Positions 4,632 through 30,772 of a stretch of 36,070 bases of DNA are shown here, piece by piece. Origin of the DNA: Emcibacter sp. (GTDB lineage Bacteria; Pseudomonadota; Alphaproteobacteria; Sphingomonadales; Emcibacteraceae); assembly GCA_021774875.1 (NCBI GenBank), contig JAJFIP010000060.1, positions 1 through 36,070 of the forward strand, in the 5' to 3' direction. The stretch's first letter is position 1. Each line of letters starts with the position of its first letter. Made by a program: the position numbers and the translations under genes. The notes under the pieces are model-generated. The model searched no databases, was not told the DNA's origin, and saw only the letters and a program-made list of their open reading frames with translations.

Positions 4632-4636
4632 ATGCA

Positions 4637-6171: not shown

Positions 6172-6182
6172 AGAGTGAATTA

Positions 6183-7775: not shown

Positions 7776-7789
7776 AATGAGCAGAATAT

Positions 7790-8650: not shown

Positions 8651-9113
8651 AACTGAACTAGACTTTACCCTTAATGGCAGACCGGTCAATATCGAGGTTC
8701 CTGTGGATATGACGGTGCTAAACCTGTTGCGCGATGCTCTGGATATGAAGGGGACAAAATATGCCTGCGGTGAAGGTGAATGTGGAGCCTGCACCATTGA
8801 AGTGGACGGCACGACCATCAATAGCTGTCTGATGATGGCCGTTGATTTGCAAGACCGCGAGGTTATGACTATTGAGGGTATGCAGACCGGACATATGCTC
8901 CATCCCATGCAGCAGTCTTTTGTTGATCATGGGGCTGTGCAATGCGGGTTTTGTATGCCGGGAATGATCGTTCAGGCCAACTATCTGGTCAAGAAAAACC
9001 CTGACCTCACAAGGGAAGAAATGAAACGGGGACTTGAAGGCAATGTCTGTCGCTGTACCGGATATACCAAGGTGCTTGATGCGGTTGCGGCAGTTGTTGG
9101 GGCGAAAGGATAA
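8640..9113 (+). CDS. Molybdenum hydroxylase [2Fe-2S] (small) subunit
   Basis: This 157-residue subunit carries the two [2Fe-2S] clusters that wire the molybdenum centre to FAD. The plant-ferredoxin type cluster is seen as CGEGECGACTIEVDGTTINSC near residues 42-62. The all-helical domain shows CGFCMPGM (near 101-108) and CRCTGYTKV (near 136-144), the usual C-x2-C plus C-x-C ligands. The length is the family norm (about 150-165). The ATG lies inside the end of the FAD-subunit gene, with GAGGAG about ten bases upstream. Relatives include the CoxS, HmfC and nicotinate-dehydrogenase small subunits. All ligands are intact, so an active electron-transfer chain is expected. Confidence 0.95.
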   Translation: MSVKTELDFTLNGRPVNIEVPVDMTVLNLLRDALDMKGTKYACGEGECGACTIEVDGTTINSCLMMAVDLQDREVMTIEGMQTGHMLHPMQQSFVDHGAVQCGFCMPGMIVQANYLVKKNPDLTREEMKRGLEGNVCRCTGYTKVLDAVAAVVGAKG

Positions 9114-9117
9114 GACC

Positions 9118-11445: not shown

Positions 11446-12650
11446 AGCAAAAAATAGTTCTGAGCCTTGAACAGGCTCTGTCCCTGCCCTCGGCGACTTT
11501 GCGCTTTGCCCAGCTGGGCTGGCGGGTGATCAGGATAGAAGCAGCCCCTTCGGGACGCGGCTTGCCCGGTGACCCCAACCGCTATATAGGCAAACATATC
11601 ATTGATGACGGCGATGATCGGCGCAGCTATTTCATGGCTCCAAATGTGGGTAAGGAAACCATAGCACTCAATCTGAAAACAGAAGAAGGCCGCGCGGCCC
11701 TGCATCAGATCATTCGCGAACTGGACGTAGATATTTTCTGTTGTAATACTCTGCCCGGACGCTACGAACAAATGGGCATAGATTATGAAACATTGCGTAC
11801 CATCAAGCCTGACCTGATCTGGGCGGGCATTTCAGCCATGGGGCCGGATTATCCGGGTGTGCCGGGCTATGATCCGGCGATACAGGCCATGTCGGGCTTT
11901 ATGGAAGTGACGGGGCAGGAAGATGGCCCACCGACCCTGTCCGGTATTCCGCTTGTGGACCTGAAAGCAGGCGATGAGGTATATGCGGGGGTTATGCTTG
12001 GGCTGGCTGAGCGGGCCGAAAGCGGGCGCGGCAAACGCATTGATGTCTCCATGCTGCAAGCGGCGGCAAGCTGGCTGATCACTACCCTGCCCCTGCTCGA
12101 TTTTGATTGTGACAAGTCGGAAATTACCCGCTGCGGCAATGAACATCGGAAATTCATTCCCACCAATGCCTATCCGACAAAAGATGGCTTTATCTATGTG
12201 GCGATCGGCAATGATGTGCAGTGGCAACGGATGACTGAAATCCCGAAATTTAATACACTGGCAAATGAAACCCGCAAAACCAACGAAGGTCGTCATCTGG
12301 AACGACAGGCACTTTATGTGGATATTGGTGCCCTGACGTCACTTTATACCACTGACGAATTGGTGGATGATTTTATGGCGGCAACCATTCCCCATGCCCG
12401 GATTAATGATGTGCTGCAAGTGGCCGGGCTTGATGCCATCAAAAGCAAGCTGACCATGACACAATTACCAGATGGCAGAGAAATTCAAATGCAGCCCATG
12501 GCGGTGGATGTTGAGGGCGCGGTGACGGAGCTTGGCTTTCCACCCCGTTACGGTGAGCAGACGGCACAGGTTTTATCCGAGGCTGGCTATGGGGCAGAAG
12601 ATTGTGCAAAGTTACAGGAAACGGGTGCCATATTTTGTGCTTCTGAATAG
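11442..12650 (+). CDS. Class III (CaiB/BaiF) CoA-transferase
   Basis: This 402-residue family III CoA-transferase moves CoA between carboxylic acids through an aspartyl-CoA thioester. Family segments are [22 protein letters not shown] near 66-87, [26 protein letters not shown] near 106-131, [17 protein letters not shown] near 142-158, and IPLVDLKAG near 169-177, in which Asp173 should be the nucleophile. ATG 11442 overlaps the Mo-subunit stop as ATGA; an upstream in-frame TTG (11424) is less likely. The adjacent AMP-forming ligase offers a second activation route, so this enzyme may recycle CoA from a product to incoming substrate. Partner acids cannot be read from sequence. Confidence 0.9.
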
Positions 12651-12662
12651 GGAGGATCAGAC

Positions 12663-14171
12663 ATGACCATAGCAGGCTGGATTGATAAGTGGGCCTCAGC
12701 TTGCCCTGAAAAAACCGCCATTCAGTTTGAGGGCGAGAAGATCAGCTATGGTACTTTCAATCAGAAGATTACAGATACCGCCGCGATGCTTGATGAAAGT
12801 CTGGATATAAAAAAAGGCGATCGGGTGGCTTTTCTGGGTCAAAATCATCCACGCACCCTGTATCTATTGTTCGCCTGCGCCCGTATCGGGGCCATATTTG
12901 TGCCGCTCAACTGGCGGCTGACACCGGCGGAACATATTCACATGCTGATGGATTGCACCGCCTCAGCCCTGTTTGTCGAACAGGACTATCAGGATCATTG
13001 TGAAATATTAAAAGAAAAGCTGCCCGAGTGCCGACTGATAACATGGGGCGGCATGGACCAGCCGGGCTGGCTGGGACTGCGTCAGTTAATGGCATCAGCA
13101 AAAGGCCAAGATCCCCGCCCGATCGTTGATCCATCTGATCCCATTTTGCTCATATTCACCTCTGGCACCACGGGCTTTCCCAAGGGGGCGGTGCTCACCC
13201 ATGCGGCACTGGAAGCCAATGCGGAAAATAGTATTGATATGCATGACATGGTCCATGAAGATGTGCTGTTGATCATATTGCCCATGTTCCATGTGGGGGG
13301 CTTGAATGTTCAAACAACACCCGCCTTCAGTATTGGAGCGACAATTCTTTTGCATAAGGCTTTTGATGTGGTACAGGTTATCAAGGCTTTCAATGAAGAT
13401 CAGCCAACATTGGGGATTATCCTGCCTCCCCATATGGCCCCGCTCCGGGCCCATGCTAAATGGGCTGATATAGATTTTTCCTGTCTTCGTAGTCTTACAA
13501 CCGGATCCTGTGTCATACCCGATGATATGATTGATTATTGGCAGGAATTAAACGTTCCGCTGATACAGGTGTATGGCTCCAGCGAAACTGGCCCCACGTC
13601 AATTTATCAAAAGGCGGGCAATGTTCTTGAAACCAAAGGGTCTATGGGATATGCGGCACAGGGATGCAAAGTCAGGATCATTGATGATCAGGGCAACGAT
13701 TGCGACATTGGCCAGTCGGGAGAAATTTTGATCAAGGGACAGAATGTGATGGCCTTTTACTGGGGCAACAAAAGTGCCACGGCGGCCGCTCTGAAAGATG
13801 GCTGGTATTATACCGGTGATATTGGTTATCAGGACGATCAGGGCCGTTATTTTTTTGTTGACCGGAAAAAGGATATGATTATATCTGGCGGAGAAAATAT
13901 TTACCCCGCTGAATTGGAAGCTGTGCTTGCCAGCCATTCAGATATTTTGGAAGTTGCCGTGGTGGGTCGGGCTGATGATCGTTGGGGCGAAATTGTCGCG
14001 GCCTTCATTATCCTGAAAGGGAATTCTGCGCTCGACAGGGAAGACATATTGGATTGGCTCGGTGATCGGCTTGGGCGTTATAAACATCCGCGCATCTTTC
14101 ATTTTGTCGATGAGATGCCCCGCAACAGTATGGGTAAGATCATGAAAGAAAGTCTTAGAGAAATCGCGTGA
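12663..14171 (+). CDS. AMP-forming acyl-CoA synthetase (ligase)
   Basis: This 502-residue ANL-superfamily ligase activates a carboxylic acid with ATP to an acyl-adenylate and then to the CoA thioester. Core motifs are all present: TSGTTGFPKG at about 166-175, YGSSETG at 304-310, YYTGD at 382-386, DRKKDMIISGGENIYP at 400-415, and NSMGKIMK with the acylation Lys492. A strong GGGAGG ribosome site precedes the ATG. The length is typical of medium-chain or aryl acid ligases, and no membrane or fused domain is seen. It likely feeds the pathway that begins with the molybdenum hydroxylase. The gene overlaps the next one by 4 bases (GTGA). Confidence 0.93.
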   Translation: MTIAGWIDKWASACPEKTAIQFEGEKISYGTFNQKITDTAAMLDESLDIKKGDRVAFLGQNHPRTLYLLFACARIGAIFVPLNWRLTPAEHIHMLMDCTASALFVEQDYQDHCEILKEKLPECRLITWGGMDQPGWLGLRQLMASAKGQDPRPIVDPSDPILLIFTSGTTGFPKGAVLTHAALEANAENSIDMHDMVHEDVLLIILPMFHVGGLNVQTTPAFSIGATILLHKAFDVVQVIKAFNEDQPTLGIILPPHMAPLRAHAKWADIDFSCLRSLTTGSCVIPDDMIDYWQELNVPLIQVYGSSETGPTSIYQKAGNVLETKGSMGYAAQGCKVRIIDDQGNDCDIGQSGEILIKGQNVMAFYWGNKSATAAALKDGWYYTGDIGYQDDQGRYFFVDRKKDMIISGGENIYPAELEAVLASHSDILEVAVVGRADDRWGEIVAAFIILKGNSALDREDILDWLGDRLGRYKHPRIFHFVDEMPRNSMGKIMKESLREIA

Positions 14172-18190: not shown

Positions 18191-18673
18191 TTAACGGGAT
18201 TCTCCCTGAATATTTTCCAGCATATGATTTAGCAGCTTCAACAGTTGCTTTCTGTCTTCTTCAGAAAAATCTTTTAATGCCCGGTCTTCCCGTGAAAATG
18301 CCGGAACTGTAGCACTGCGAAATGTGTCCTGGCCCTTTTTTGTCAGGTGAACAAGCACATAACGGTTGTCTTTTTCCCGTAGCTTCCGGGTGACGAGCTT
18401 TTCCTTCTCCATACTGTCGATGACGCGACTAACCGATGATTGTTCCATCATGGTAAAGCTGCAAAGCTCGCTCATATTGCGGCCATCACTGGCATGAAGT
18501 GCGCACAGAACCCGCCAGCGTGAGACGTTTATTTTCAGGGGTCGCAGGCAGTCCTGCAAATCCATATTCAAGCGGTTGGTAATCCGGTACATGACATAGG
18601 GGATAAACTCATCAAGAAATGTTTCCTTATCCTCGCTTATATTCTCGGTCACTGTAATATGTCCTCGATACAC
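18191..18673 (-). CDS. MarR-family transcriptional regulator
   Basis: This 160-residue protein has the MarR winged helix. An N-terminal dimer helix (FIPYVMYRITNRLN) is followed by the recognition region MSELCSFTMMEQSSVSRVIDSMEKEKLVTR and the beta wing RKLREKDNRYVLVHLT. Members bind palindromic operators as dimers and usually release on binding an aromatic or CoA-linked ligand. The start is GTG at 18673; a second GTG eight codons on (18652) is an alternative. It is transcribed divergently from the TetR gene and lies upstream of the hydrolase gene in the same direction. It is a candidate regulator of the large array on the + strand, though the target is not shown by sequence. Confidence 0.9.
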   Translation of the reverse strand: MYRGHITVTENISEDKETFLDEFIPYVMYRITNRLNMDLQDCLRPLKINVSRWRVLCALHASDGRNMSELCSFTMMEQSSVSRVIDSMEKEKLVTRKLREKDNRYVLVHLTKKGQDTFRSATVPAFSREDRALKDFSEEDRKQLLKLLNHMLENIQGESR

Positions 18674-18719
18674 TGTAAATTTTGCCGGATTGTAGGGGGC
18701 TTTGATGAATATGGCTACC

Positions 18720-18756
18720 CATAACTGATATATGCGGTTATGATTTTCACTGAAAA
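18720..18756. promoter_or_regulatory. Two adjacent palindromes between the MarR and TetR genes (candidate operators)
   Basis: The 99-base divergent intergenic region carries CATAAC-N11-GTTATG at 18720-18742 and, directly after it, the perfect palindrome TTTTCA-C-TGAAAA at 18744-18756. Both are of the size bound by MarR or TetR dimers and lie where the two divergent promoters must be. I infer auto- or cross-regulation. Which protein binds which site cannot be told. Confidence 0.45.
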
Positions 18757-18772: not shown

Positions 18773-19357
18773 ATGACAAAGAAATTTAAAAGACGGGACT
18801 TGATTCTGGAAAAGGCCGGGCAGCTTTTTACCGACAAGGGTTTTTCAGCGACATCATTAGAGGATATTGCCGACGCCGTTGGGATCAAACGGGAATCGCT
18901 TTATTATTATTACCCCGGAAAATATGATCTTCTCTATGATATTATTGAGCCGGAGATTTGCAAGGTTATGGAGAATTTTGTGGCGATAGTGGCCGAAGAA
19001 ACTGACTTTGAGAAAACCGTCCGTCTGGGTATTGCAAATCATCTCCGGCAGTTTAATTCAAGCTATCTACATATGGCTATGGCGGTTCGCAAGAACAGCA
19101 AAGACGGCGTCGAGCAGAAATTCATTCACTTGCGTGATATGTTCAAGGCCTATGAAAATATCTGGATGGAGCTGTTCAGTGCAGCCCACGCCACCGGAGC
19201 AGCAAGAGGCGATATTAAGATCAAAACATTGGTCTATTCCCTGCTCGGGTTATGCAATAGCCTGTCCAGCTGGTACCGGCCAGACGGAGATTTATCCCTC
19301 GATCAGATTGGAGAACATTTTTCAGATATTATTCTGGGCGGGATTAAACCCCACTAA
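18773..19357 (+). CDS. TetR-family transcriptional regulator
   Basis: This 194-residue TetR-type repressor has its N-terminal helix-turn-helix at about residues 8-52: ILEKAGQLFTDKGFSATSLE, then DIADAVGIKRESLYYYYPGKYDLLYDII, closing with the typical Tyr-rich recognition helix. The C-terminal ligand domain is unassigned. TetR proteins next to acyl-CoA genes often sense acyl-CoA. The gene is divergent from the MarR gene and convergent, with a 4-base overlap of stop codons, with the fused dehydrogenase/hydratase gene. That gene's promoter contains a palindrome which this protein or MarR may bind. The ribosome site is weak. Confidence 0.92.
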   Translation: MTKKFKRRDLILEKAGQLFTDKGFSATSLEDIADAVGIKRESLYYYYPGKYDLLYDIIEPEICKVMENFVAIVAEETDFEKTVRLGIANHLRQFNSSYLHMAMAVRKNSKDGVEQKFIHLRDMFKAYENIWMELFSAAHATGAARGDIKIKTLVYSLLGLCNSLSSWYRPDGDLSLDQIGEHFSDIILGGIKPH

Positions 19358-21372
19358 CCGGTTTTTTCAAAGTCTGGTTTGCGCCGCTCCTGAAAGGCTG
19401 AAATGCCTTCGCCGGCGGCATTGGTGCAGGCACTGTCCCCAAAAGCAGCATAACCCACATCAAGCGCATCATCCAGTGAGGAGCAAGCGGCGGCTTCAGC
19501 AACAGCCTTTTCAATAATGCCAATGATTTCACCGCTGAGAATCTGTCCATTGACAGAAGTACCATCAGAGGGTTCAAAACCGGTAATCTGGACAGGGTCG
19601 CCAGTGATTTCATGTTGTGATCCCTGTAATTTATCCAATTGCCTGATGGCGGCGGGGATTAGCGCTTGCGGTTCAGCAACAAGTTCCGCAATCATGCCAA
19701 TTTTATGGGCTTGCTTTGCGGTCAATTTTTCTGCCTGCGTCAACATACGGTTGAAAGTCGCTGCAGCCTCAGGCCAGCGGCGGTAGGGGATCACCATGGC
19801 CCCGATACCCGGCACAATGCCAAGGGTCACTTCCGGCAATTGCATCCATGCATTCTCTCGTGCCACCAACCCATGACATCGGGTGGCCAATTCCAGACCA
19901 CCGCCCAGTGCCAGACCATTGAGCGCGGCAATAACTGGCTTGGGACAGCTGTCCAGATGAACCAGCAGCCGGGAGCAGCTTACCGCATAATCAATACTCT
20001 GTGCCTTATCCCCCAACAGGGTCGGGAATTTTCCAATATCAGCTCCGGCGCAAAATGCCTGGGTGCCATAACCGGTAATGACAAAACCTTTGACCGCAGG
20101 GTCATTTTCATAGGCCCGTATGACAGATAGAATTTCATCGGTCATCTGGTCATGCAGGGCGTTCATGGCTTCGGGTCGGCGCAGGGTAATAACCTTGGCT
20201 CCATCCACATCATCCACCAGAATGTTGCGGTAAAAATCCAGATATTCAGAAATTGATTTTTTCGGCTGGGGCATGCCCGGTTTGTAATCAGCGAATTTCT
20301 GTAAGATACGCATGACTTCTTCATCGCCCAACGCCTGCATAAGGTCCAATGGGCCTTTTTTGAAAGCAAAGGCCAGACGGCAACCCAGATCAAAATCTGC
20401 TGCCGAGCCGATACTGCGGTCCATGATGTCCACGGTTTGGGAAAATAATATCCCCAGCAGGCGGTCCCGGATTTTATCTGCAATTTCTGAGTCCACGGGT
20501 ACGGGCGAGCCGGGCGGGTTGGTGTCCCACCTGTCAACCTCGTTAAAGATGGCTGCCGGAGTATAATGGTCGCCTTCTTCTGCCGCCTGCACCGTATTGG
20601 TTTCAACGATGATCGGGTTGCCGTGGGCAAAATTCAGCACGAAAAACGGCCCCGCATGAACCAGCTCCATGGCCACACTGTCAATTTGTGCCGGGCTGGC
20701 AATATCCAGCAACAGGGCGGCCTCGTTGCACCAGTTATCAAAAATCCGATCGAGCATAAAACAGACCGCATCAGTGGTGATCATGGGAACCTTGCCGGTC
20801 ATGCCAAAAAACCAGCGCAGATAATCACTTAAACCTGGATTGGTGCCATGCCAGTCAATAACCTCAACCACGGGATTCTGAAATGCGGGAGCAAAAAAAT
20901 GAGTGACCGTGGCCCGTTCGGGGTGGTCGAGATGGGAAAACAACCATTCTGCCGGCAGGGAACTGGTGTTGGAGGTGATCAGGGCATCGGGCCGGATATT
21001 GGCCTCTATCTGAGAGAATATTTTTCTTTTTAAGCCGAGGTCTTCTGTGGCAGCTTCCAGCACCCAGTCACAGTCGGCCAGAGCCGCATAATCGGTGGAG
21101 GTCACAAGATTCTGTCGTACAGCTTCTGCCTGTTGTTCACTTAGCTTGCCCCTTTTCAGTCCCTTTTCCACGTAAGCATGAATTCGGTCAACTGCCTTGG
21201 TTAAAGCCTGTGGGTTGATGTCGATCAGCACCAGAGTTAAATCCTTGAGCGCACTTTTCAGATAATATCCAATGTCAGGACCAATGGTGCCTGCGCCAAT
21301 GATCGCGATGGATTTTGGCATTTTCCGAATCGGGTTTATCAAGATGGGATTATTAACGGGCAGAGCAGGCAT
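19354..21372 (-). CDS. Fused 3-hydroxyacyl-CoA dehydrogenase/enoyl-CoA hydratase (dehydrogenase domain first)
   Basis: This 672-residue bifunctional beta-oxidation enzyme hydrates enoyl-CoA and oxidises the 3-hydroxyacyl-CoA with NAD. The N-terminal dehydrogenase (about 20-390) shows the Rossmann loop GAGTIG, TSNTSSLP and HFFAPAFQNPVVEVI with the catalytic His. The C-terminal crotonase (about 400-660) shows AFCAGADI, LGGGLELATRC and MQLPEVTLG, so both catalytic Glu positions are kept. The domain order is opposite to FadB and matches the archaeal crotonyl-CoA hydratase/3-hydroxybutyryl-CoA dehydrogenase fusion. ATG 21372 was chosen because AAGGAAA precedes it; an upstream GTG (21396) lacks a ribosome site. 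A clear promoter with an operator-like palindrome lies upstream. It could supply the hydration and oxidation steps missing from the + strand array. Confidence 0.92.
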   Translation of the reverse strand: MPALPVNNPILINPIRKMPKSIAIIGAGTIGPDIGYYLKSALKDLTLVLIDINPQALTKAVDRIHAYVEKGLKRGKLSEQQAEAVRQNLVTSTDYAALADCDWVLEAATEDLGLKRKIFSQIEANIRPDALITSNTSSLPAEWLFSHLDHPERATVTHFFAPAFQNPVVEVIDWHGTNPGLSDYLRWFFGMTGKVPMITTDAVCFMLDRIFDNWCNEAALLLDIASPAQIDSVAMELVHAGPFFVLNFAHGNPIIVETNTVQAAEEGDHYTPAAIFNEVDRWDTNPPGSPVPVDSEIADKIRDRLLGILFSQTVDIMDRSIGSAADFDLGCRLAFAFKKGPLDLMQALGDEEVMRILQKFADYKPGMPQPKKSISEYLDFYRNILVDDVDGAKVITLRRPEAMNALHDQMTDEILSVIRAYENDPAVKGFVITGYGTQAFCAGADIGKFPTLLGDKAQSIDYAVSCSRLLVHLDSCPKPVIAALNGLALGGGLELATRCHGLVARENAWMQLPEVTLGIVPGIGAMVIPYRRWPEAAATFNRMLTQAEKLTAKQAHKIGMIAELVAEPQALIPAAIRQLDKLQGSQHEITGDPVQITGFEPSDGTSVNGQILSGEIIGIIEKAVAEAAACSSLDDALDVGYAAFGDSACTNAAGEGISAFQERRKPDFEKTG

Positions 21373-21403
21373 TTTATTTTTCCTTAATTTTATCACATAT
21401 CAC

Positions 21404-21434
21404 TAATTCTACATAAACGTAGAATTATTATCAA
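21404..21434 (-). promoter_or_regulatory. Sigma-70-type promoter overlapped by a palindromic operator, upstream of the fused beta-oxidation gene
   Basis: On the minus strand TTGATA (21434-21429) and TAGAAT (21411-21406) are separated by 17 bases, a near-consensus promoter about 35 bases before the ATG. A perfect 9-base inverted repeat, TAATTCTAC-ATAAAC-GTAGAATTA (21404-21427, + strand), covers the -10 box and most of the spacer. This is the classical place for repressor binding. The TetR or MarR protein encoded nearby is the likely ligand (inference). Confidence 0.65.
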
Positions 21435-21500
21435 CCATTGTAATACACCAATAAAAATATTATCCTTTGGCGGGCTGTGTAAAGGCTAGTATGGACATTT

Positions 21501-22016
21501 ATGGAAAAAAAACACAAAATATTCATTGAGCAGATGTATCAGGATAATCATGAGGGATTCTTGAGATTCCTGATGCAGAAAACTCAAAATATGGATGATG
21601 CTCATGATGTGCTCCAGGAAGCTTTCCAGAAATTGATGAAACGGGAAGGGCTTCGGGAAATGGAAAATCCCCGGGCCTATCTTTACCGTACCGCCACCAA
21701 TATCATCATTGACCGCCAGCGCAAGGGACAGCATCACCTGCGCTATATCCGTGAAGTGACAAGCGGTGGCGAAGAGGTCGCGGCAAGTTTAAGCACCATC
21801 ATCCCGCCGGACCGGCAGGTGGCGGCACGGCAGGAGCTTGATCTGATTTATCAGGCTCTGGATACCCTGCCTGAAAAATGCCGCCGGGCTTTCCTGATGC
21901 ACCGGGAACAACATATGAAATATGGTGAAATAGCGGAGACCTTGAGCATTTCCATTAGTATGGTGGAGAAATATATGATACAGGCTCTTAAACATTTAAG
22001 ACGTAAAATGAAGTAA
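21501..22016 (+). CDS. ECF-family RNA polymerase sigma factor (FecI-like)
   Basis: This 171-residue sigma factor has only regions 2 and 4. Region 2 appears as the helix MDDAHDVLQEAFQKLMKR and the -10-reading segment NPRAYLYRTATNIIIDRQRK (about 35-80). Region 4 is LDTLPEKCRRAFLMHREQHMKYGEIAETLSISISMVEKYMIQAL (about 115-160), with the IAETLSISISMVEKY helix-turn-helix of FecI-type factors. It is followed by a FecR-type anti-sigma gene and an STN-bearing TonB receptor, the full cell-surface signalling set. When the receptor binds its ligand, FecR should release this factor to transcribe the uptake genes. The ribosome site is not obvious. Confidence 0.93.
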   Translation: MEKKHKIFIEQMYQDNHEGFLRFLMQKTQNMDDAHDVLQEAFQKLMKREGLREMENPRAYLYRTATNIIIDRQRKGQHHLRYIREVTSGGEEVAASLSTIIPPDRQVAARQELDLIYQALDTLPEKCRRAFLMHREQHMKYGEIAETLSISISMVEKYMIQALKHLRRKMK

Positions 22017-22077
22017 AATACTGAGGGTTCTCAGATATGAACCGTTTATGATAGGTAACGGGGTTAGAGTAAAGAAG

Positions 22078-23085
22078 ATGAGTGAACAGATTATAGATGA
22101 TATTCTGCTGGATGAGGCCACCGAGTGGTTTGTACTGATGCGTGCCGATGATATATCGCAGCAACGTTCGGACGACTTTGTACTTTGGATAAGCCAAAGC
22201 CCACGGCATCAGGCGGCATACGCCCAAATTGGCGGATTTTGGGATGGTCTTTCTGTTATTGAAACGGAAAAGGCATCCAATTCTTCATTGGCGGATCATA
22301 AAGCTCCTGAAGCATCTAATAATAATTCCATGCCCCGGAACTGGTCACCCAGACTGATTGCCGCCTCTATTGCCTTTTTGATCATGAGTTTTGTCGGGAT
22401 TAATTACGGCGATATTCTGCTAATGGACAGTCATTCCACTAAAGTAGGCGAACTTGCAGATATTTTTCTGGCTGACGGCTCACATCTGGTCATGAATACC
22501 AATTCCAAAGTGAAAATTGATCTGCAGGATGACAGGCGAATTGTCTATCTGGAGCAGGGCGAGGTTTTCTTTGAGGTGGCCAAAGATAAAGACCGTCCTT
22601 TTTATGTGGAAACTAGTGGCGGTCTTGTGCGGGTTCTGGGCACCAAATTCAATATTCGCCGCAAAGGTAATGCCAGTGATGTGACAGTTGTGGAAGGTTC
22701 TGTGGCTGTTATGGATTATGGCCGTATTAAAGATAATCTTATGGCTTTGTCACTGGATGCCACGCTGAAGCCGGGTCAGAAGTTCACCCTTGGCAATGAT
22801 GACCTGGCCAATATCGCGGTGACCGTGGATAGTGCAGCAGTGCTGGCATGGCAGGACCGCAAGCTGATCTATAACGGCGAAAATTTTGCTACACTTGTCG
22901 CGGATATTAACCGCTATTATGAGACGGAAATCCGCATTGGCGACCGGGCCCTGAATAATATTGAGGTGGTGGCTATTCTAAAAGTCGAAGATCGCGGCGC
23001 CACATTGAAGGCACTTGAGACCACATTTAATGTCACAGCCCGTCCTGTTTCCAAAGACCTTATCTACCTCTATCCCAACAATTAA
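22078..23085 (+). CDS. FecR-family anti-sigma/sigma-regulatory protein
   Basis: This 335-residue inner-membrane protein transmits the signal from the outer-membrane receptor to the ECF factor. It has a cytoplasmic N-terminal domain (EATEWFVLMRADDISQQRSDDFVLWI, about 13-38), one membrane segment near 91-110 (RLIAASIAFLIMSFVGINYG), the periplasmic FecR core (DIFLADGSHLVMNTNSKVKI, then YLEQGEVFFEVAKDKDRPFYV) and a C-terminal DUF4974-like part (YNGENFATLVADINRYYETEIRIGD) that contacts the receptor STN domain. ATG 22078 was preferred over an in-frame ATG at 22048 because the family domain begins directly after it. Neither has a strong ribosome site. The gene lies between the sigma factor and receptor genes, as expected. 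Confidence 0.92.
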   Translation: MSEQIIDDILLDEATEWFVLMRADDISQQRSDDFVLWISQSPRHQAAYAQIGGFWDGLSVIETEKASNSSLADHKAPEASNNNSMPRNWSPRLIAASIAFLIMSFVGINYGDILLMDSHSTKVGELADIFLADGSHLVMNTNSKVKIDLQDDRRIVYLEQGEVFFEVAKDKDRPFYVETSGGLVRVLGTKFNIRRKGNASDVTVVEGSVAVMDYGRIKDNLMALSLDATLKPGQKFTLGNDDLANIAVTVDSAAVLAWQDRKLIYNGENFATLVADINRYYETEIRIGDRALNNIEVVAILKVEDRGATLKALETTFNVTARPVSKDLIYLYPNN

Positions 23086-23099
23086 AAATATTGTATAGT

Positions 23100-23121
23100 T
23101 CCCTAAAATAAACTTTAGGGA
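23100..23121 (+). promoter_or_regulatory. Hairpin masking the ribosome site of the STN receptor gene
   Basis: TCCCTAAA-ATAAAC-TTTAGGGA is a perfect 8-base inverted repeat that ends one base before the ATG at 23123. Its 3' arm contains the only ribosome-binding-like bases (AGGGA). In the mRNA the stem would hide that site, so it could limit receptor translation. Alternatively it may be an operator in DNA. Confidence 0.5.
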
Positions 23122-23122
23122 G

Positions 23123-25699
23123 ATGTTTAAGAAAATGCGACAAATGCTTGTCGGGTTTTTTCCTGTATTCAAGACTGTTCGGGCATGGTTTCCAAAGCTG
23201 AAACTTTGGCGTGCCATGACCAGAATTTTGCTGCTTGGTCTTGTTCTCAGCTTTGGAACAGGTCTGACTAGCCATGCCCAAGTTGAAACTAAAAAAGATT
23301 TTAACGTTTCAGCGCAGACGTTATCCACGGCACTATTAAATTTTGGTGAGCAGGCAGATTTATCCCTGATGGTGCGCAAAGCAGACACCAGAGGTAAAAA
23401 ATCCACAGCTGTGAAAGGACTTATGTATCCGAGAGAGGCATTGATGCTACTCTTGAAAGATACCAGTCTCGGGTTTAAATATATCGACCAAAAGACAATT
23501 TCTGTTTCCCCGGATTTATTCAGGCCACAGGAAGCTGACAGCCTGAAACTGTCGGATATAAAAAGCTCACCTGAGGAAGAAGAAACAGATGATCCTGGTC
23601 ATCTGACAACCCTTGATGAAGTGGTCGTTACGGCACTACACAGACGTAGTAATATGCAGAAGGCACCAGTGGCCGTGACCGTAATAAAACCACCCCTGAT
23701 TCGCGAAGCCCGTATTCACGAATTGCAGGATATGGGTACCCGGGTTCCCGGCCTGACAGTGGCTAGCTTCAGCATCGGACAGCCCACCATTCACGTTCGC
23801 GGCGTTGGCTCTAATGACGACGGCGCGGCTCTGGATAATTCCATTGTTATGTTTATTGATGATGTCTATGTGGGCCGCATCACTGCCATCAGTATGAATT
23901 TTTATGATCTTGAGCAGATTGAGATTATGCGCGGGCCCCAGGGGACGTTATACGGCAAAAATGCCATTGGCGGCGCCATCAATGTCACCAGCAAGAACCC
24001 CACGGAACAAGTATCTGGTGTGGCAGAGGCTACCGTAGGCAATTATGGCCGTCTTGACCTGCGTGGTGTGATCAGTGGCCCCCTGGTGTCAGATAAAATC
24101 CTGGGCCGCCTTGCGGTTCACAGGCGCAAGCGAAATGGCTGGCAGGAAAGTGTATTTTTGCCGGGGGTCAAACAGAATGATGAAAATACATGGTCTAGCC
24201 GTGGTAAACTTATATTTGCCATAAGTGATCAGACCCAGGTAGATCTGAATGGGGATTACAGCCGGGATGATCTGGAAAGTACGGGCCGTATTCCGGTGGT
24301 GGGCCGGGTGCCAGTGCGTCTGCTGGGGTCGGATGGCCTGCCAACCGGACAGAAGGCCTTGCCAACGGATATTTTTGAAAGTCTGGGTGGTAGTGCCAGA
24401 AATGCCATTAACAGTGATCGGGGTTTTACCGACCGTAAAATCTGGGGCCTGAGTAGCCGGATAAGCCGACAGGGGGATTATGGCAGATTATTATCGATCA
24501 CCGCCTACCGCAGGACAGATTTTTCCTGGCTGGAAGATTCCACCGGCCTGCCGTCTTCCCTCACCGACCAGAAAGTTAATTCCAATGTAGAAGAACAGCA
24601 TTCACAGTTTTCACAGGAGTTTCGCTGGATTTCACCGGGTGAGGCGCGTCTGAAATATGTCCTGGGTTTCTATTATCTGTTTGAGCATACTCATCGTATA
24701 GAAAATTTTGCCTTTCCAAGCCTTGTATCGACCACGGATCAGGATAATAAAACCAACAGTTTTGCCGCCTTTGGTGATGTGACATATGGTCTTGCCAGAC
24801 ATGTGAATTTTACTGTTGGGGGCCGACTGACCTATGAAACCAAGCGTATGGACCAAAAGAATATCACCAATGGTGATCAGACCATTTTACTGGAAGATTT
24901 CACTCTAAGAAATGAAGGAAGCTGGACAGACTTTTCACCCAACTTTGTTCTATCGTGGCAACAGCGTGAAGACATCATGTGGTATGCCAGCATTTCGCGC
25001 GGCTATAAAAGCGGTGGCTTTCAGGGGGCACCGGCGACCCGTAAGCTCGCCCTAAAAACTATTGATCCTGAATCTGTGTGGAATTATGAAGTCGGCCTAA
25101 AGTCCCAATGGTTTGATGATCGGTTGCGTTTAAATCTGGTGGGCTTTCATTCTGACTACCGGGATTTGCAGGTCGTGCAATTCAAGACAGAAGGAAATTT
25201 TGGCGTCTTTCAGACCAGCAATGCGGCTTCTGCAAGTCTGGAGGGACTGGAAATGGAATTTACCCTGAAACCGCTTGCTGGGCTGGAGTTTTTTGGTTCT
25301 TATGCCTTTCTGGATGCCACTTATGATGAGTTCAACGATCTTTCAGGGCGAGATTTTACCGGTAATACTCTGCGGCAAGCCCCACGCCATTCCCTGTATC
25401 TGGCCCTATATTATGAACGGCCTTTTTATCATGGACGCCTCCGTTTCCGGGCGGATTACCGCTATCAGGGCCAGAGTTTTCGCGAGCCTGATAATAGCGT
25501 CACCATTCAGCCGGGCTTTGATCTGGTCGATGCTTCCATAGCCTATGAAGCCGCTGACAACAGCTGGGAAGCGACGCTATGGGCCAAGAATTTGCTGGAT
25601 AAGGAATATATCACCCATCTTTATGTGTTGGGTGGCAATGATTTTGCCCTGTTTGGCACCCCCCGCACCTATGGGCTGACGGTAACGTTGAATTTCTAA
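23123..25699 (+). CDS. TonB-dependent receptor with STN signalling domain
   Basis: This 858-residue outer-membrane receptor and transducer (FecA-like) starts with an unusually long, basic leader before the signal peptide (MTRILLLGLVLSFGTGL, cleavage near SHA). The STN domain follows (DFNVSAQTLSTALLNFGEQADLSLMV to KYIDQKTISV, about 55-135), then the TonB box region TLDEVVVTA near 167-175. The plug carries RGVGSNDDG and MRGPQGTLYGKNAIGGAIN. The 22-strand barrel ends in GLTVTLNF with the terminal Phe. The start may be ATG 23123, 23135 or even 23216; the position of AGGGAG fits 23135 best, although spacing is long. It takes up an unknown ligand and signals through FecR and the ECF factor. Sequence blocks are shared with the receptor downstream. 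Confidence 0.92.
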   Translation: MFKKMRQMLVGFFPVFKTVRAWFPKLKLWRAMTRILLLGLVLSFGTGLTSHAQVETKKDFNVSAQTLSTALLNFGEQADLSLMVRKADTRGKKSTAVKGLMYPREALMLLLKDTSLGFKYIDQKTISVSPDLFRPQEADSLKLSDIKSSPEEEETDDPGHLTTLDEVVVTALHRRSNMQKAPVAVTVIKPPLIREARIHELQDMGTRVPGLTVASFSIGQPTIHVRGVGSNDDGAALDNSIVMFIDDVYVGRITAISMNFYDLEQIEIMRGPQGTLYGKNAIGGAINVTSKNPTEQVSGVAEATVGNYGRLDLRGVISGPLVSDKILGRLAVHRRKRNGWQESVFLPGVKQNDENTWSSRGKLIFAISDQTQVDLNGDYSRDDLESTGRIPVVGRVPVRLLGSDGLPTGQKALPTDIFESLGGSARNAINSDRGFTDRKIWGLSSRISRQGDYGRLLSITAYRRTDFSWLEDSTGLPSSLTDQKVNSNVEEQHSQFSQEFRWISPGEARLKYVLGFYYLFEHTHRIENFAFPSLVSTTDQDNKTNSFAAFGDVTYGLARHVNFTVGGRLTYETKRMDQKNITNGDQTILLEDFTLRNEGSWTDFSPNFVLSWQQREDIMWYASISRGYKSGGFQGAPATRKLALKTIDPESVWNYEVGLKSQWFDDRLRLNLVGFHSDYRDLQVVQFKTEGNFGVFQTSNAASASLEGLEMEFTLKPLAGLEFFGSYAFLDATYDEFNDLSGRDFTGNTLRQAPRHSLYLALYYERPFYHGRLRFRADYRYQGQSFREPDNSVTIQPGFDLVDASIAYEAADNSWEATLWAKNLLDKEYITHLYVLGGNDFALFGTPRTYGLTVTLNF

Positions 25700-25760
25700 A
25701 TATTAACAAAAAGTTAAAAAAAACTGAGGGGTTTCTTCCGCCCATCGTTGAATAGGGTGT

Positions 25761-25787
25761 TGCAGCTCGAAAATGTAAGAAGCTGCA
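25761..25787. repeat. Inverted repeat between the two receptor genes
   Basis: TGCAGCT and AGCTGCA (7 bases each, perfect) are separated by 13 bases in the 126-base gap between the receptor genes. No T-run follows, so a terminator is unlikely. An operator or an mRNA leader structure for the second receptor is possible. Confidence 0.35.
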
Positions 25788-25825
25788 CATAATAATTTGA
25801 CAAAATATAGAAACAGGAGACGACC

Positions 25826-28138
25826 GTGAAAGCATGGTATTATGCAACGACTTCCCTTTGTGCCATTGGCATGATCACTACACCCCTTACCGCAACCGCC
25901 GCAGATGAAGATGATTCATTTGCCATTGATGAAATTATCGTGACCGCCCAGAAAAGGTCAGAAAATCTTCAAGCCGCCCCCCTTGCCATTTCAGCATTTA
26001 GCGGTGATCTTCTGCGCGAGGACGATATTTCCAACCTGCAGGATATTGGTAACCGGACACCGGGCTTGGTTTTTGCGGCTTTCAGCGTTGGCCAGCCTGA
26101 AATAGCCATTCGTGGTATCGGCACCAAGGAAGACGGCGCATCTGCGAGTGACAGTGTTGTGGTTAGCGTTGATGATGTATATATCGCTGCCAGAACGGCG
26201 CAGGTTTTTGATATATTTGATCTGGAACGGGTTGAAGTGCTGCGGGGACCACAGGGTACTCTGTATGGTAAAAACTCCATCGGTGGCTCCATAAACTTTG
26301 TTACCACCAAGCCAGGTGAGGAAACAGAAATCCGTGCCCGTCAGACCGTGGGTGATTATGGCCGTTTTGATACTGCCGCGATGATCAGTGGCCAGATTGC
26401 GGAAAATCTGTTTGGTAAAGTTTCCATCAGTCGCCGTGAATTTAATGGCTATTACAAAAATGTTCTGGTCGGTTCCGATCTGTTTGGCAAGCAACTTGGC
26501 GGCGGCGAAACCTTTGCTTACCGGGGTATGTTACGCTGGACACCCAGTGAAGATCTCGAAGTGATATTTAGCGCCGACGGTGCTGACGATAATATGGGCG
26601 ACAGCAACCGCGAGCCGGTTGGCAGCGCCGGCCCGCTGCATGATTGTGGTTGTGCTTCTGATCCCATAGCGGTCAATATTGCCCTTGGTGGCAGTACAAC
26701 GGCTTTTGATAGTTTGAATGATCTGGAAGGCTTTGCCAACCGCGATGTTGAGGGCTACTCCATAAAAGTCAACTGGGATCAGCCCTGGGGAACATTTACC
26801 TCCATATCCGCCTACCGCAAAAGCACTTTTGACTGGATTGAAGATTCAGAAGGTCTGCCCACAACCAATACATTTGTTGCCTTCAATGCGCCGACGGGAC
26901 CTGGCCCGGCTTTTGTTGCCCCGGCCACAGAAGGTTTTGCCTTTGACGTGGAAGATGCGGCGGTTGAAAATACCAAACAATATACCCAGGAATTTCGGGT
27001 TACATCTGGCGGCGAATCTGATTTGAGCTGGGTTGCCGGCCTATTTTATTCTCGCGAAGAAACTGACCGCATTGAAAGATTTACTTTCCGGTCCATTGGC
27101 CTGACTATAGGTGGCGTGGATTTCCCCAGTGATATGTCTTCGATTCAGACCAACGAATCAGACACCTTTGCCGCTTATGCAGATGGGTCTTATGACGTAT
27201 CCGACAAATTAACCGTTCGGGCGGGCATTCGTTATTCTACAGAGAAAAAAGATATGACGGCAGAAGGCATCCTTCACAGTGGTGTTGCTCTGTTGCTGCA
27301 GAATTTTGCCGAGGTTTCTGCGAGTGATCGCTGGAGCAACGTATCCTGGCGGGCAGTCGCCGATTATCAGGTCACGGAAGAAGCTATGGTTTACGGCAGT
27401 ATTTCCACAGGCTATAAATCTGGAGGGTTCACAGGCTCTGCATCCACAGGGGAAAGGGCCAGCACGCCGTTTGATTCTGAAAAAGCCACCAACTTTGAGG
27501 TTGGCCTGAAATCACAATTCTGGGATAATCGTGCGCGGGTGAATATTGCTGCCTTCTTTACCGATTACAAGAACCTTCAGGTCACCCGTTTCTTCCAGCC
27601 AGAAGGCAGCGGATTTGGTCAGTTTATCACTGAAAATGCCGGTGAAGCTGAGTTGAAGGGTGTCGAGGTTGAATATACCATATTGCTGACCGAAGAGTTT
27701 GAAGTCGGCGGCAGTTATGCCTATCTTGATGCGGAATATACCGAGTTTACCGGAACGCCAAGTGTTACCGGAACAGGTGATTTCACCGGTAATACTCTGC
27801 GTCAGGCACCGGAGCATAGCTTCAGCTCCTATGCCAAATACACTTTGCAACTGGAAGACGGCAGCTCACTTTCTGCCAAGGTCAATTATCGTTATCAGTC
27901 CCTGACTTTTTATGACCCCAATAATAACGACATCACAACCATCCCCGCTTATGATATTTGGGATGCGCGGCTGGCGTGGAATTCTCCCGATGGTAAATGG
28001 GAGCTGGCTGGCTGGGTCAAGAATATCAGTAACGAGGAATACCGCACCCATGTCTTCTCCCAGCGCGGCAGTCGTATTGCCTTCGCCTTGTTTGGTGCGC
28101 CAAGAACTTATGGCTTTACAGGCACCTATACATTCTAA
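25826..28138 (+). CDS. TonB-dependent receptor without STN domain
   Basis: This 770-residue outer-membrane receptor has a short signal peptide (cleavage near ATAADED), a TonB-box-like DEIIVTAQKR near 30-39, a plug with RGIGTKEDG and LRGPQGTLYGKNSIGGSIN, and a barrel ending in GFTGTYTF. The start is GTG 25826 with AGGAGA five bases upstream. It shares long similar blocks with the upstream receptor (for example DFTGNTLRQAP in both, and DWIEDSEGLP against SWLEDSTGLP), so the two are tandem paralogues. One signals; this one only transports. It looks like the sphingomonad-type receptors used for bulky organic compounds as well as siderophores, and the substrate is unknown. A hairpin terminator follows. 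Confidence 0.93.
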   Translation: MKAWYYATTSLCAIGMITTPLTATAADEDDSFAIDEIIVTAQKRSENLQAAPLAISAFSGDLLREDDISNLQDIGNRTPGLVFAAFSVGQPEIAIRGIGTKEDGASASDSVVVSVDDVYIAARTAQVFDIFDLERVEVLRGPQGTLYGKNSIGGSINFVTTKPGEETEIRARQTVGDYGRFDTAAMISGQIAENLFGKVSISRREFNGYYKNVLVGSDLFGKQLGGGETFAYRGMLRWTPSEDLEVIFSADGADDNMGDSNREPVGSAGPLHDCGCASDPIAVNIALGGSTTAFDSLNDLEGFANRDVEGYSIKVNWDQPWGTFTSISAYRKSTFDWIEDSEGLPTTNTFVAFNAPTGPGPAFVAPATEGFAFDVEDAAVENTKQYTQEFRVTSGGESDLSWVAGLFYSREETDRIERFTFRSIGLTIGGVDFPSDMSSIQTNESDTFAAYADGSYDVSDKLTVRAGIRYSTEKKDMTAEGILHSGVALLLQNFAEVSASDRWSNVSWRAVADYQVTEEAMVYGSISTGYKSGGFTGSASTGERASTPFDSEKATNFEVGLKSQFWDNRARVNIAAFFTDYKNLQVTRFFQPEGSGFGQFITENAGEAELKGVEVEYTILLTEEFEVGGSYAYLDAEYTEFTGTPSVTGTGDFTGNTLRQAPEHSFSSYAKYTLQLEDGSSLSAKVNYRYQSLTFYDPNNNDITTIPAYDIWDARLAWNSPDGKWELAGWVKNISNEEYRTHVFSQRGSRIAFALFGAPRTYGFTGTYTF

Positions 28139-28241: not shown

Positions 28242-28556
28242 ATGTCACTGCCTGAAACTGAAAAATGTCTTGCCCACCCCAAATTTAAACAGCTTGTCCA
28301 CGCCCGTGGCAGGTTCAGCTTTTTATTCAGTCTGATCATCACGGCGGGTTACGGCTTCTTTGTGCTGGGCATGTCCTATGCGCCCAGGTTTATGTCTAGT
28401 CCGATTCAAGAAGGCAGGATGATGACCTACGGCATTTTAACGGCTGTGTTGGTGATCGTGAGCGGAATGGTCTGTTCAGGCATATATATCTGGTGGGCCA
28501 ACAGGAAATTTGATGTGCTAAAGGCGGAATTGTTGAAAGAGTTGGGGTATGAGTAA
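28242..28556 (+). CDS. DUF485 (YjcH-like) small membrane protein
   Basis: This 104-residue protein has two membrane helices (FLFSLIITAGYGFFVLGMSYA near 27-47 and YGILTAVLVIVSGMVCSGIYIWWA near 65-88). It carries the DUF485 pattern, a charged N-terminus HPKFKQLVHARGRFSF and a C-terminal WWANRKFDVL. DUF485 proteins are nearly always encoded just before ActP-type symporters and are thought to assist them. GGGAG precedes the ATG, and the gene overlaps actP by 8 bases. Confidence 0.92.
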   Translation: MSLPETEKCLAHPKFKQLVHARGRFSFLFSLIITAGYGFFVLGMSYAPRFMSSPIQEGRMMTYGILTAVLVIVSGMVCSGIYIWWANRKFDVLKAELLKELGYE

Positions 28557-30213
28557 AAAAACTGTTTTTGCAATACTGGCCACAATCGGTGCGCCCGGCA
28601 TGGCATTTGCTGCCACTGCTGTACCTCTGGGCGAAGTGGATAAGCAACCCCTTAATATTACAGCTATAGCCATGTTCTTTATTTTCGTTATGGCGACACT
28701 TGGCATCACATGGTGGGCGGCCCGTCATACCAAGACCAAGGATGATTTCTATGCCGCAGGTGGTGGTATCAAGCCATGGCAGAATGGCACGGCCATAGCC
28801 GGGGATTTCATGTCGGCGGCGACTTTTCTCGGCATCACCGGGGCCATATACGGCTTTGGTTTTGATGCGCTGATTCTGGCGGTTGGCGTGATGGCGGCAT
28901 GGCCGGTGATTTTATTTCTGATTGCCGAACGCTTGCGCAATCTGGGCAGTTATACCTTCATTGATGTGGTTTCATACCGGCTGGAGAAAAAACCGATCAG
29001 GATTATTTCTGCCATTGGCTCCTTATCGGTTGTTATATTTTATTTGATTGCCCAGATGGTTGGCGCGGGCAAACTGATCCAACTGTTATTTGGTCTGGAT
29101 TATGTCTATGCGGTGATATTGGTCAGCTTCCTGATGATTTGTTATGTCAGCTTTGGCGGTATGTTGGCAACCACATGGGTGCAGTTGATCAAGGCGATTC
29201 TGTTGCTGATCGGGGGAACTTTCATTGCCTTCATGGTGATGAAAAGCTTTAATTTCAGTTTTGAAGCTGTGCTTGGCAGTGCCACAAAAGTGCATCCCAA
29301 GGGCAATGCTATCCTCGCGCCCGGCTTGTGGATGACCAGCCCGGTTGCTATTATTTCCATCGGCCTGACCATGATGTTCGGCATTATGGGGCTGCCCCAT
29401 ATCCTGATGCGCTTCTTTACGGTGAAGGATGCCAAAGATGCCCGCAAGTCGGTTTTTGTCGCGACAACCCTGATGGGTTATTTCTATATCCTGATCATTA
29501 TTATTGGCTTTGGTGCCATGACTTTTGTTATGGGCAATCCTGATTATCATGATGCAGTCGGCAAAATTTTAGGCGGCGGTAATATGGTGGCGCTACATCT
29601 GACCCATTTTATGGGCGGTAACCTGATGCTTGGCTTTATGTCGGCAGTGGCCTTTGCGACCATCCTTGCGGTGGTTGCCGGATTGACCTTGGCCGGGGCG
29701 GCGACTATTGCCCATGATCTATATGCCAAGACCTTTAAAACCACCCCGACCACCAGCGTTGAGGAAATCAGGGTATCACGGATTGCAACCTTTGCTCTGG
29801 GCGGTATTTCAGTGGTTCTGGGTATTGCCTTTGAGCATCAGAATGTGGCTTTTGTCGCCTCACTGGCCCTTGCCATTGCCGCGAGTGTGAATTTTCCCAT
29901 CCTGATCATGTCCATGTATTGGCGAGGCATGACCACCAGTGGGGCGGTGGCTGGCGGCGTTGTCGGGCTGGTTTTGTCCATTGGCCTGATTATACTGGGG
30001 CCAGGGGTTTGGGTGTCTGTGATCGGCAATGCAGAGCCTGTTTACCCCCATATATATCCCACCTTCTATTCCATGCCGTTGGCCTTTGCTGCTATCTGGC
30101 TGTTTTCAGTGCTGGATAAATCTGCACGGGCGAAAAATGAAATTGCCCGGTTTGATGAACAATATGTCCGTTCTGAAACCGGAATCGGTATTTCCGGGGC
30201 CAGTAAACATTAA
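28549..30213 (+). CDS. actP: Cation/acetate symporter ActP
   Basis: This 554-residue sodium:solute symporter matches E. coli ActP along its whole length. Shared blocks include AIAGDFMSAATFLGI, WPVILFLIAERLRNLG, LIAQMVGAGKLIQLLFGL, FGGMLATTWVQLIKA, GLPHILMRFFTVKDA and AVAFATILAVVAGLTLAGA. It has an N-terminal signal-like helix and about 13 membrane segments. It imports acetate and related short monocarboxylates with a cation. It is translationally coupled to the DUF485 gene. The formate dehydrogenase genes start 68 bases later, so short-chain acid use may be a shared theme, although a common transcript is not proven. Confidence 0.95.
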   Translation: MSKKTVFAILATIGAPGMAFAATAVPLGEVDKQPLNITAIAMFFIFVMATLGITWWAARHTKTKDDFYAAGGGIKPWQNGTAIAGDFMSAATFLGITGAIYGFGFDALILAVGVMAAWPVILFLIAERLRNLGSYTFIDVVSYRLEKKPIRIISAIGSLSVVIFYLIAQMVGAGKLIQLLFGLDYVYAVILVSFLMICYVSFGGMLATTWVQLIKAILLLIGGTFIAFMVMKSFNFSFEAVLGSATKVHPKGNAILAPGLWMTSPVAIISIGLTMMFGIMGLPHILMRFFTVKDAKDARKSVFVATTLMGYFYILIIIIGFGAMTFVMGNPDYHDAVGKILGGGNMVALHLTHFMGGNLMLGFMSAVAFATILAVVAGLTLAGAATIAHDLYAKTFKTTPTTSVEEIRVSRIATFALGGISVVLGIAFEHQNVAFVASLALAIAASVNFPILIMSMYWRGMTTSGAVAGGVVGLVLSIGLIILGPGVWVSVIGNAEPVYPHIYPTFYSMPLAFAAIWLFSVLDKSARAKNEIARFDEQYVRSETGIGISGASKH

Positions 30214-30280
30214 TTTTCATTATTGAATTGTATGAGGGAACAAGCGGCATTAGTATGCTTCCTTTTAAAAAGGATGACAT

Positions 30281-30772
30281 GTGCTAAATGATAAGACCCA
30301 CCTTGAAAAGGCTGAGTGGGATGAAACCGAAGCCCGGCAGGTGATAGAGCAGTTTACAGGCTTGAAAGGGGGTCTGATGGAAGCCCTGCATGGGCTGCAA
30401 CATGCCTTTGGCTTTATTCCAAAACCAAGCTACGACTTGCTTGCTGATGTTTTTAACCTTTCAAAAGCTGAAATTTACGGCGTCAAAAGTTTCTATCATG
30501 ATTTCAAGAGTGAGCCTCAGGGCCATCATGTGATTCAGATTTGTCAGGCGGAATCCTGTCAGGCACGGGGCAGTCGGGCTTTGACGAGACATGTACAGGA
30601 ATTATTGGGAATAAAGCTCGGCCAAACTACCCATGACGGACATTTCACGCTGGAGGCGGTCTATTGTCTGGGCAATTGCGCGGTATCCCCCAATATCACT
30701 TTCGATGGCAAACTTCATGGCCGCATGAGTGAGGACAATTTTGACGGCCTGTTGAAAAAGGTCGCGCTATGA
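30281..30772 (+). CDS. fdsG: NAD-dependent formate dehydrogenase gamma subunit (FdsG, NuoE-like)
   Basis: This 163-residue NuoE-like subunit has a helical N-terminus and a thioredoxin-fold [2Fe-2S] domain. The ligand Cys are in CQAESCQARGS (near 87-97) and CLGNCAVSPN (near 131-140), giving C-x4-C and C-x3-C. It relays electrons within the soluble FdsGBA complex. The start is GTG 30281, chosen because AAGGA stands 6-7 bases upstream and no ATG fits. It overlaps fdsB by 4 bases (ATGA). Confidence 0.93.
   Translation: MLNDKTHLEKAEWDETEARQVIEQFTGLKGGLMEALHGLQHAFGFIPKPSYDLLADVFNLSKAEIYGVKSFYHDFKSEPQGHHVIQICQAESCQARGSRALTRHVQELLGIKLGQTTHDGHFTLEAVYCLGNCAVSPNITFDGKLHGRMSEDNFDGLLKKVAL

Follow-up and report, generated by a model that had tools for sequence, protein, structure and literature searches.

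The TetR-family protein considered here is closest, by sequence and by fold, to the KstR2/PfmR/AibR/FadR group. Some members of this group have, according to PDB names and titles, been solved with acyl-CoA ligands; they share ~15-29% identity with our protein in structural alignments. Three other TetR regulators are also informative. DarR, from Mycobacterium and Rhodococcus, was crystallised with the operator TAGATAC-TCCGGA-GTATCTA (PMC10636190). EdcR is a repressor of estradiol degradation in Caenibius, and its deletion derepresses the genes (PMC8700777). BkaR acts on branched-chain acid genes of mycobacteria; it is autoregulated, as TetR regulators generally are, and its promoter region holds two sites (PMC3920632).

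Here we analysed a 36,070-nucleotide stretch of DNA from Emcibacter sp. (hereafter the window), in which a 9-6-9 palindrome, TAATTCTACATAAACGTAGAATTA at 21404-21427, lies upstream of a fused beta-oxidation gene, HAD-ECH. We consider it probable that this palindrome is the operator of a TetR protein encoded nearby (18773-19357), which would repress HAD-ECH until released by a ligand. We infer binding, repression, ligand and promoter use from sequence, position, conservation, co-occurrence and TetR-operator pairs.

The palindrome shares its TAC-N6-GTA core with the DarR operator, which thus offers a structural parallel. The two proteins match in fold and their recognition-helix patterns look alike by pattern reading; on that reading the place of DarR Gly45 would be taken by Glu41 of our TetR. 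DarR itself senses cyclic nucleotides and acts as a dimer of dimers; the flanking arms of its operator differ, and it has no link to this pathway (PMC10636190). EdcR resembles our TetR in being alphaproteobacterial and catabolic, and in that its proposed palindrome has TAC/GTA inner triplets and overlaps the -10 box, the arrangement proposed here; it differs in a spacer of 5 rather than 6 bases, in the arms, in a TetR_C_11 C-terminal domain and in a partial operator at its own promoter (PMC8700777). BkaR is likewise a local repressor of acyl-CoA-type genes with a palindromic operator, reported as a motif of 24 bp, the core of which is however GTTA-N-T-N4-A-N-TAAC (PMC3920632). We found no prior publication on this operator or this TetR among the literature matches listed; the terms are ambiguous and absence from print is not thereby established. 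The general mechanism, in which a TetR protein represses locally from its operator, is ordinary and of a known type.

The locus and the promoter beneath the palindrome

HAD-ECH (19354-21372, minus strand) encodes a protein of 672 amino acids, identified by domain search as an N-terminal 3-hydroxyacyl-CoA dehydrogenase fused to a C-terminal enoyl-CoA hydratase. The TetR gene (18773-19357, plus strand) is convergent with it, the two stops overlapping. The 194-amino-acid product, our candidate repressor on the grounds of domains, co-occurrence and fold, scores 50.6 bits for the TetR HTH domain PF00440 (cut-off 24) and 58.1 bits for TetR_C_24 (cut-off 26.4). Its predicted fold is all-helical, with nine helices and a mean pLDDT of 85.7; among the 50 fold matches listed, the top TM-scores were those of KstR2 (0.87) and DarR, with PfmR and AibR also matching. 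CoA esters are present in several of the TetR structures matched, so the obvious guess for the ligand is an acyl-CoA from the neighbouring pathway.

Next to the TetR gene lies a MarR-family regulator (18191-18652, minus strand). The intergenic region between them carries CATAACTG / GGCTACCCATAACTG...TATG (18714-18745), an element common to several relatives and unlike the operator, possibly a site for another regulator of TetR. On the far side of the palindrome an ECF sigma factor gene (21501-22016, plus strand) is divergent from HAD-ECH and begins a group (21501-28138) of ECF sigma, FecR and two TonB-dependent-receptor genes, the second receptor assigned by similarity only, which is kept beside HAD-ECH in the genus. 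An ActP-like acetate symporter gene and a formate dehydrogenase gene set follow at 28549-35115. An acyl-CoA catabolic cluster occupies 56-14171; it comprises a thiolase piece, caprolactamase/acetophenone-carboxylase-like subunits, an acyl-CoA dehydrogenase and a two-subunit B12 mutase, then a xanthine-dehydrogenase-like Mo hydroxylase, a class III CoA transferase and an acyl-CoA ligase. Parts of this cluster are common to Rhodocyclaceae and other lineages, where they also stand beside a HAD-ECH gene.

The candidate operator, TAATTCTAC-N6-GTAGAATTA, has arms that are complementary at 9/9 positions around a 6-base spacer. The earlier note had described a minus-strand promoter, TTGATA-N17-TAGAAT, with a perfect 9-base palindrome over its -10 box and spacer, and this was borne out at 21404-21434. 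The -35 hexamer TTGATA (21434-21429) and the -10 hexamer TAGAAT (21411-21406) together match the consensus at 10/12 positions, and the pair ranked best among 29 promoter-like sites between 16000 and 30000 (shuffle mean, 19.3 sites). The right arm of the palindrome includes the -10 box and the left arm falls inside the promoter spacer. The distance of 35 bases to the ATG given in the same note needs correcting, since we measured 33 bases from the -10 box and 31 from the palindrome to the ATG at 21372. A Shine-Dalgarno-like AAGGA (21381-21385, minus strand), read from the sequence, lies 8 bases 5' of this ATG; an alternative longer frame with a GTG start at 21396 would leave hardly any leader. 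If the -10 assignment is correct, the HAD-ECH transcript would start near 21399, so that the palindrome would lie outside the transcript and form no RNA hairpin.

Taken by itself, the palindrome is no more than expected by chance in 36 kb and mildly unusual in its own intergenic region. A scan of the whole window for perfect 9-base arms with spacers of 0-10 found 1 such palindrome, compared with 3, 5, 0, 1 and 1 in five shuffles, and 49/3000 shuffles of the 128-bp intergenic region reached the same. The palindrome pattern at up to 3 mismatches was present in 1/100 shuffled windows. A perfect palindrome of this size being expected somewhere in the window, one might regard it as functionless; we give that view a negligible probability, because the site is kept in 13/13 genus orthologues amid variable flanks, with orthologous proteins 15-24% different from that of the window. 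Conservation, rather than single-sequence statistics, is thus the key evidence for function.

The arrangement suggests how control might work. A TetR dimer would sit on the palindrome with one recognition helix per half, and would exclude RNA polymerase by covering the HAD-ECH promoter at its -10 box and spacer. An acyl-CoA or similar pathway intermediate would then bind the C-terminal domain of TetR, the dimer would leave, and HAD-ECH would be made. A site lying over the spacer between -35 and -10 could also belong to an activator that remodels the spacer in the manner of MerR. MerR-type activated promoters have an overlong spacer of 19-20 bases that contains the palindrome. The spacer here is of normal length, 16 or 17 bases, the site covers the -10 box as well and the predicted fold is that of a TetR protein, so activation by the bound TetR appears very unlikely.

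Conservation within the genus and the identity of the regulator

We searched 60 genomes, including G000, of which 16 belong to the genus; the named relatives are Emcibacter MAGs. HAD-ECH was found in 13/16 genus genomes at 76-100% identity (as two contig pieces in G003). All 13 orthologues keep TTGATA, a spacer of 16 or 17 bases, TAGAAT and the inner arms ATTCTAC/GTAGAAT, so that near-consensus boxes at a spacing within the 16-18 bases of a sigma-70-type promoter are present in every case. Sigma-70 requires no conserved sequence in the promoter spacer, where the left arm sits. The outer arm bases vary, with 9 paired in 2/13 orthologues (G000 and G003), 8 in 7/13 and 7 in 4/13 (G006, G007, G008 and G010); full 9-base pairing is therefore not itself conserved across the 13. 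Flanking sequences align poorly, and the distance from palindrome to ATG ranges from 31 to 87 bases (G002, with an ambiguous start, gives 22 as computed). In a fourteenth genome, G014, one contig carries both the site and the ECF gene, the stretch ending just past the site and before HAD-ECH. The same site was seen in ten named contigs (L042-L050 and L104), at least one of which duplicates a counted genome under its public name. Direct repressor control of the fused gene, as previously proposed, is supported by the position of the palindrome and by this joint conservation of palindrome and promoter.

Outside the genus the picture was different. The best 80 of 177 relatives of HAD-ECH comprised 10 genus loci and 70 others, of which L114 was left out as its gene begins at a contig edge. 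Among the remaining 69 orthologues no operator was found upstream within 4 mismatches, the best site having 5. A generic 9-6-9 scan of these distant loci at up to 1 mismatch gave six scattered, mostly G+C-rich matches. Conservation of the palindrome upstream of orthologues, on which the earlier note had staked its reading, thus holds within the genus and fails beyond it.

Because the palindrome lies between two divergent genes, and an ECF orthologue adjoins in 13/13 loci examined, it might instead serve the ECF gene, perhaps by binding an activator 5' of that gene's promoter. A tentative ECF promoter, TTGTAA-N17-TATCCT, read from the sequence at 21438-21466 on the plus strand, adjoins the operator and is weak in the window. 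Its hexamers are alike in several relatives, and the top site of the scan differs in others including G000; since the best sites are inconsistent between genomes, we keep this promoter as tentative. The palindrome stays locked to the -35 and -10 boxes of HAD-ECH, while its distance to the ECF start runs from 62 to 110 bases and reaches 486 in G003, where there are ~400 extra bases. Moreover, G011 keeps the ECF gene with no palindrome at the locus. From the distances across the genus the ECF gene is probably not the target, and we regard a role of the palindrome in its expression as highly improbable.

Two neighbouring genes, TetR and MarR, had been put forward as encoding the repressor of HAD-ECH. 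All 14 palindrome-bearing genomes have TetR, though in G001, G009 and G014 only in pieces at contig ends. Two genus genomes, G004 (69% complete) and G011, have neither HAD-ECH nor a 24-base match within 2 mismatches, and there TetR is represented only by homologues of 24-28% identity. This co-occurrence suggests that TetR is the regulator; it is not independent evidence, since the TetR and HAD-ECH genes adjoin each other. MarR and TetR genes lie side by side in the window as well as in several relatives, and the MarR protein might have been thought to occupy the palindrome. A MarR orthologue of at least 76% identity occurs in only 8/14 palindrome genomes; none was found in G001, G005, G006, G008, G010 and G015, all of which bear the palindrome. 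G005, G008 and G010 are 93-97% complete, and G001, G006 and G015 62-85%; G015 has a 56% MarR homologue on another contig. Conversely, G011 (98% complete, one contig) has a locus in the order ECF, MarR (76%), hydrolase, FMN dehydrogenase, TauE and HI0933-like gene, and in this 18-kb stretch we found no HAD-ECH, no TetR and no site better than 5 mismatches. The site thus does not co-occur with the MarR gene, and in two other families, f4 and f155, it accompanies TetR. We accordingly rejected MarR as the regulator of this operator, its remaining probability being very small.

Homologous TetR proteins and associated sites in other families

We extended the search for TetR homologues to 385 genomes of the class, 296 of the order and 7 of family f155. 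These searches gave homologues sharing the recognition-helix residues R40-E41 (hereafter R-E), which are invariant among 8 aligned TetRs. In G040 and G046 (f4) and G251, G343 and G676 (f155) a TetR that is 31-34% identical to ours has neighbours from the same catabolic cluster. In G040, G046, G251 and G343 the acyl-CoA ligase is 42-44%, the caprolactamase-like subunits 67-80% and the acyl-CoA dehydrogenase 70-74% identical; the f155 cluster (G251 and G343) also has the mutase subunits at 64-79%, and in G676 the TetR adjoins a thiolase (67%). The palindromes at these loci are TAATTTTAC-N6-GTAAAATTG, AAATTTTAC-N6-GTAAAATTT and GAATTTTAC-N6-GTAAAATCG. G046 has the sites TAATTTTACTTAAGTGTAAAATTG and AAAGTTTACGAGAGTGTAAAATTT, with near-identical counterparts in G040; the sites of G251, G343 and G676 are AAATTTTACGGTACCGTAAAATTT, AAATTTTACAGTACCGTAAAATTT and GAATTTTACGGAACTGTAAAATCG, respectively. 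The observed match was reached in 1, 0, 0 and 0 of 2000 shuffles of four intergenic regions from G046, G251 and G343, and in 0/1000 shuffles of the G676 region.

The sites lie upstream of TetR, between TetR and the ligase in 4/5 genomes, and f4 has a further site upstream of a dehydratase that is itself followed by the thiolase. In these families the TTTTAC operators of the homologous TetR would lie at the promoters of TetR itself, of the acyl-CoA ligase and of the main catabolic operon. When the five whole genomes were scanned with AATTTTAC-N6-GTAAAATT, 7/7 matches at up to 1 mismatch fell within ~2 kb of TetR. At exactly two mismatches there were six more, one of them (G251:C68:44191) ~2 kb from TetR; the reversed control pattern, allowed up to 2 mismatches, matched three times. 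The HAD-ECH orthologues of G251 and G343 (68%) are on other contigs and had no match within 2 mismatches. Together with co-occurrence in the genus, these matching TetR-palindrome pairs lend good support to the adjacent TetR as the regulator.

We also asked how far the site type goes with the recognition helix. Of the distinct TetRs outside the genus, 5/9 with R-E and 3/48 without it had a match within 1.5 kb when up to 3 mismatches were allowed. This count omits a truncated genus piece (L007), and the genus site itself, ~2 kb from TetR, is beyond its reach. In a smaller control on TetRs lacking R-E, 8/8 regions were free of matches at up to 3 mismatches. Of the three exceptions in the wider count, L203 and L204 represent a single KPF-type locus shared by two related genomes, with 2 mismatches, and L222 is of the KPT type, with 3. 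The L203 and L204 sites, TAATTATAC-N6-GTAGTATTA, lie ~1.5 kb from a TetR gene in G040 and G046 (Pfam run on the G040 protein). Four R-E TetRs off this pathway gave weaker sites or none, at thresholds chosen after the sites were seen: one 5-mismatch site in G060 (11/1000 shuffles), two overlapping 5-mismatch sites in G335 (0/1000 shuffles), three sites at 4-5 mismatches ~6 kb from TetR in G163 (1/1000 shuffles), and in G412 no site within 5 mismatches over ~300 bp either side. Sites of this type are strongly enriched near R-E TetRs, without being exclusive to them.

A stricter count, of perfect 6-base arms ending in TAC-N6-GTA within 1.5 kb, gave 3/3 REA, 0/6 REG and 2/48 other TetRs; the latter two are 2/7 of the KPT type, the remaining 41 TetRs having none. 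The KPT-type TetRs at L149 and L151, from two further genomes, have a perfect TGTTAC-N6-GTAACA upstream. At L202 (1331-1352) a TetR_C_24-type paralogue stands beside a dehydrogenase-like gene, with AATTATAC-N6-GTATATTT in the divergent promoter. The TAC-N6-GTA core may be shared by further proteins of the TetR_C_24 type, the helix setting the outer bases, and the stricter count backs such a shared core for few TetRs only (REA and KPT).

These comparisons also bear on whether some other, unlinked regulator binds the palindrome while TetR merely travels with the cluster. Such a reading would accommodate the dependence of co-occurrence on adjacency, the similar sites near a few other TetRs and the fact that the genus TetR has no site at its own promoter. 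It is less readily reconciled with five genomes of two other families in which the site follows TetR at different promoters and is absent elsewhere at up to 1 mismatch, and we judge it unlikely.

Targets of the proposed operator and their apparent change between lineages

If TetR is the repressor, the number of its targets in the genus appears small. The earlier note had suggested using the motif to find other members of a regulon, an expectation that did not hold: apart from the operator, G000 had only one match within 3 mismatches (exactly 3), compared with 4 control matches. Across 21 genomes a 22-base pattern at up to 3 mismatches gave 208 matches against 186 for the control. With the 24-base pattern at up to 2 mismatches, the genus had extra matches at G015:C64:16662 (1 mismatch) and G013:C8:38747 (2), each in one genome; among the matches listed for the 22-base pattern were G011:C1:1898484 (1 mismatch), G004:C16:40687 (2) and G010:C103:21466 (2). 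The G015 site (L208, 2663-2686) is a solitary palindrome, TAATTCTACCATATAGTAGAATTG, that lies apart from HAD-ECH and TetR and beside a response-regulator-like frame; with up to 2 mismatches allowed, no other genome had a counterpart at the matching place. We judged such isolated sites to be chance and, with match counts near those of the control, rejected a genome-wide regulon.

TetR autoregulation was likewise not apparent in the genus. No operator copy was found in the 230 bases upstream of the genus TetR in 12 sequences (best, 4-8 mismatches), whereas f4 and f155 do have a site upstream of TetR. The main-operon stretches of G013 and G005 had no site within 3 mismatches; that of G012 ends within the thiolase gene and does not cover the thiolase promoter. 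G013, one genome, has a LysR-family gene divergent from the thiolase. Within the genus no site other than the HAD-ECH operator recurs from genome to genome, so that it looks like a one-promoter switch; judged from the sites present in each lineage, the target of the operator appears to have changed.

The half-site also differs by one base, being TTCTAC in the genus and TTTTAC in f4/f155, and the nine other R-E TetRs have Gly or Ala at TetR residue 42, where the genus has Ser. Operator base and residue 42 may have changed together, which as one co-change on one branch is suggestive only. A broader possibility, to which we give somewhat less than an even chance, is that the operator code of the R-E-[S/G/A] TetR clade was rewired as the pathway moved: the genus would have dropped the TetR, ligase and main-operon targets, kept or gained only HAD-ECH, and recoded TTTTAC to TTCTAC with the change from Gly/Ala to Ser at residue 42.

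With these results a TetR of uncultured marine bacteria gains a specific candidate operator and target gene. An acyl-CoA pathway with a B12 mutase, a molybdenum hydroxylase and a caprolactamase-like enzyme gains a candidate regulator, which could be used to find its inducer. The single differing operator base and the single differing helix residue offer a directly testable specificity swap, and the apparently changed target set would be a small case of regulatory rewiring.
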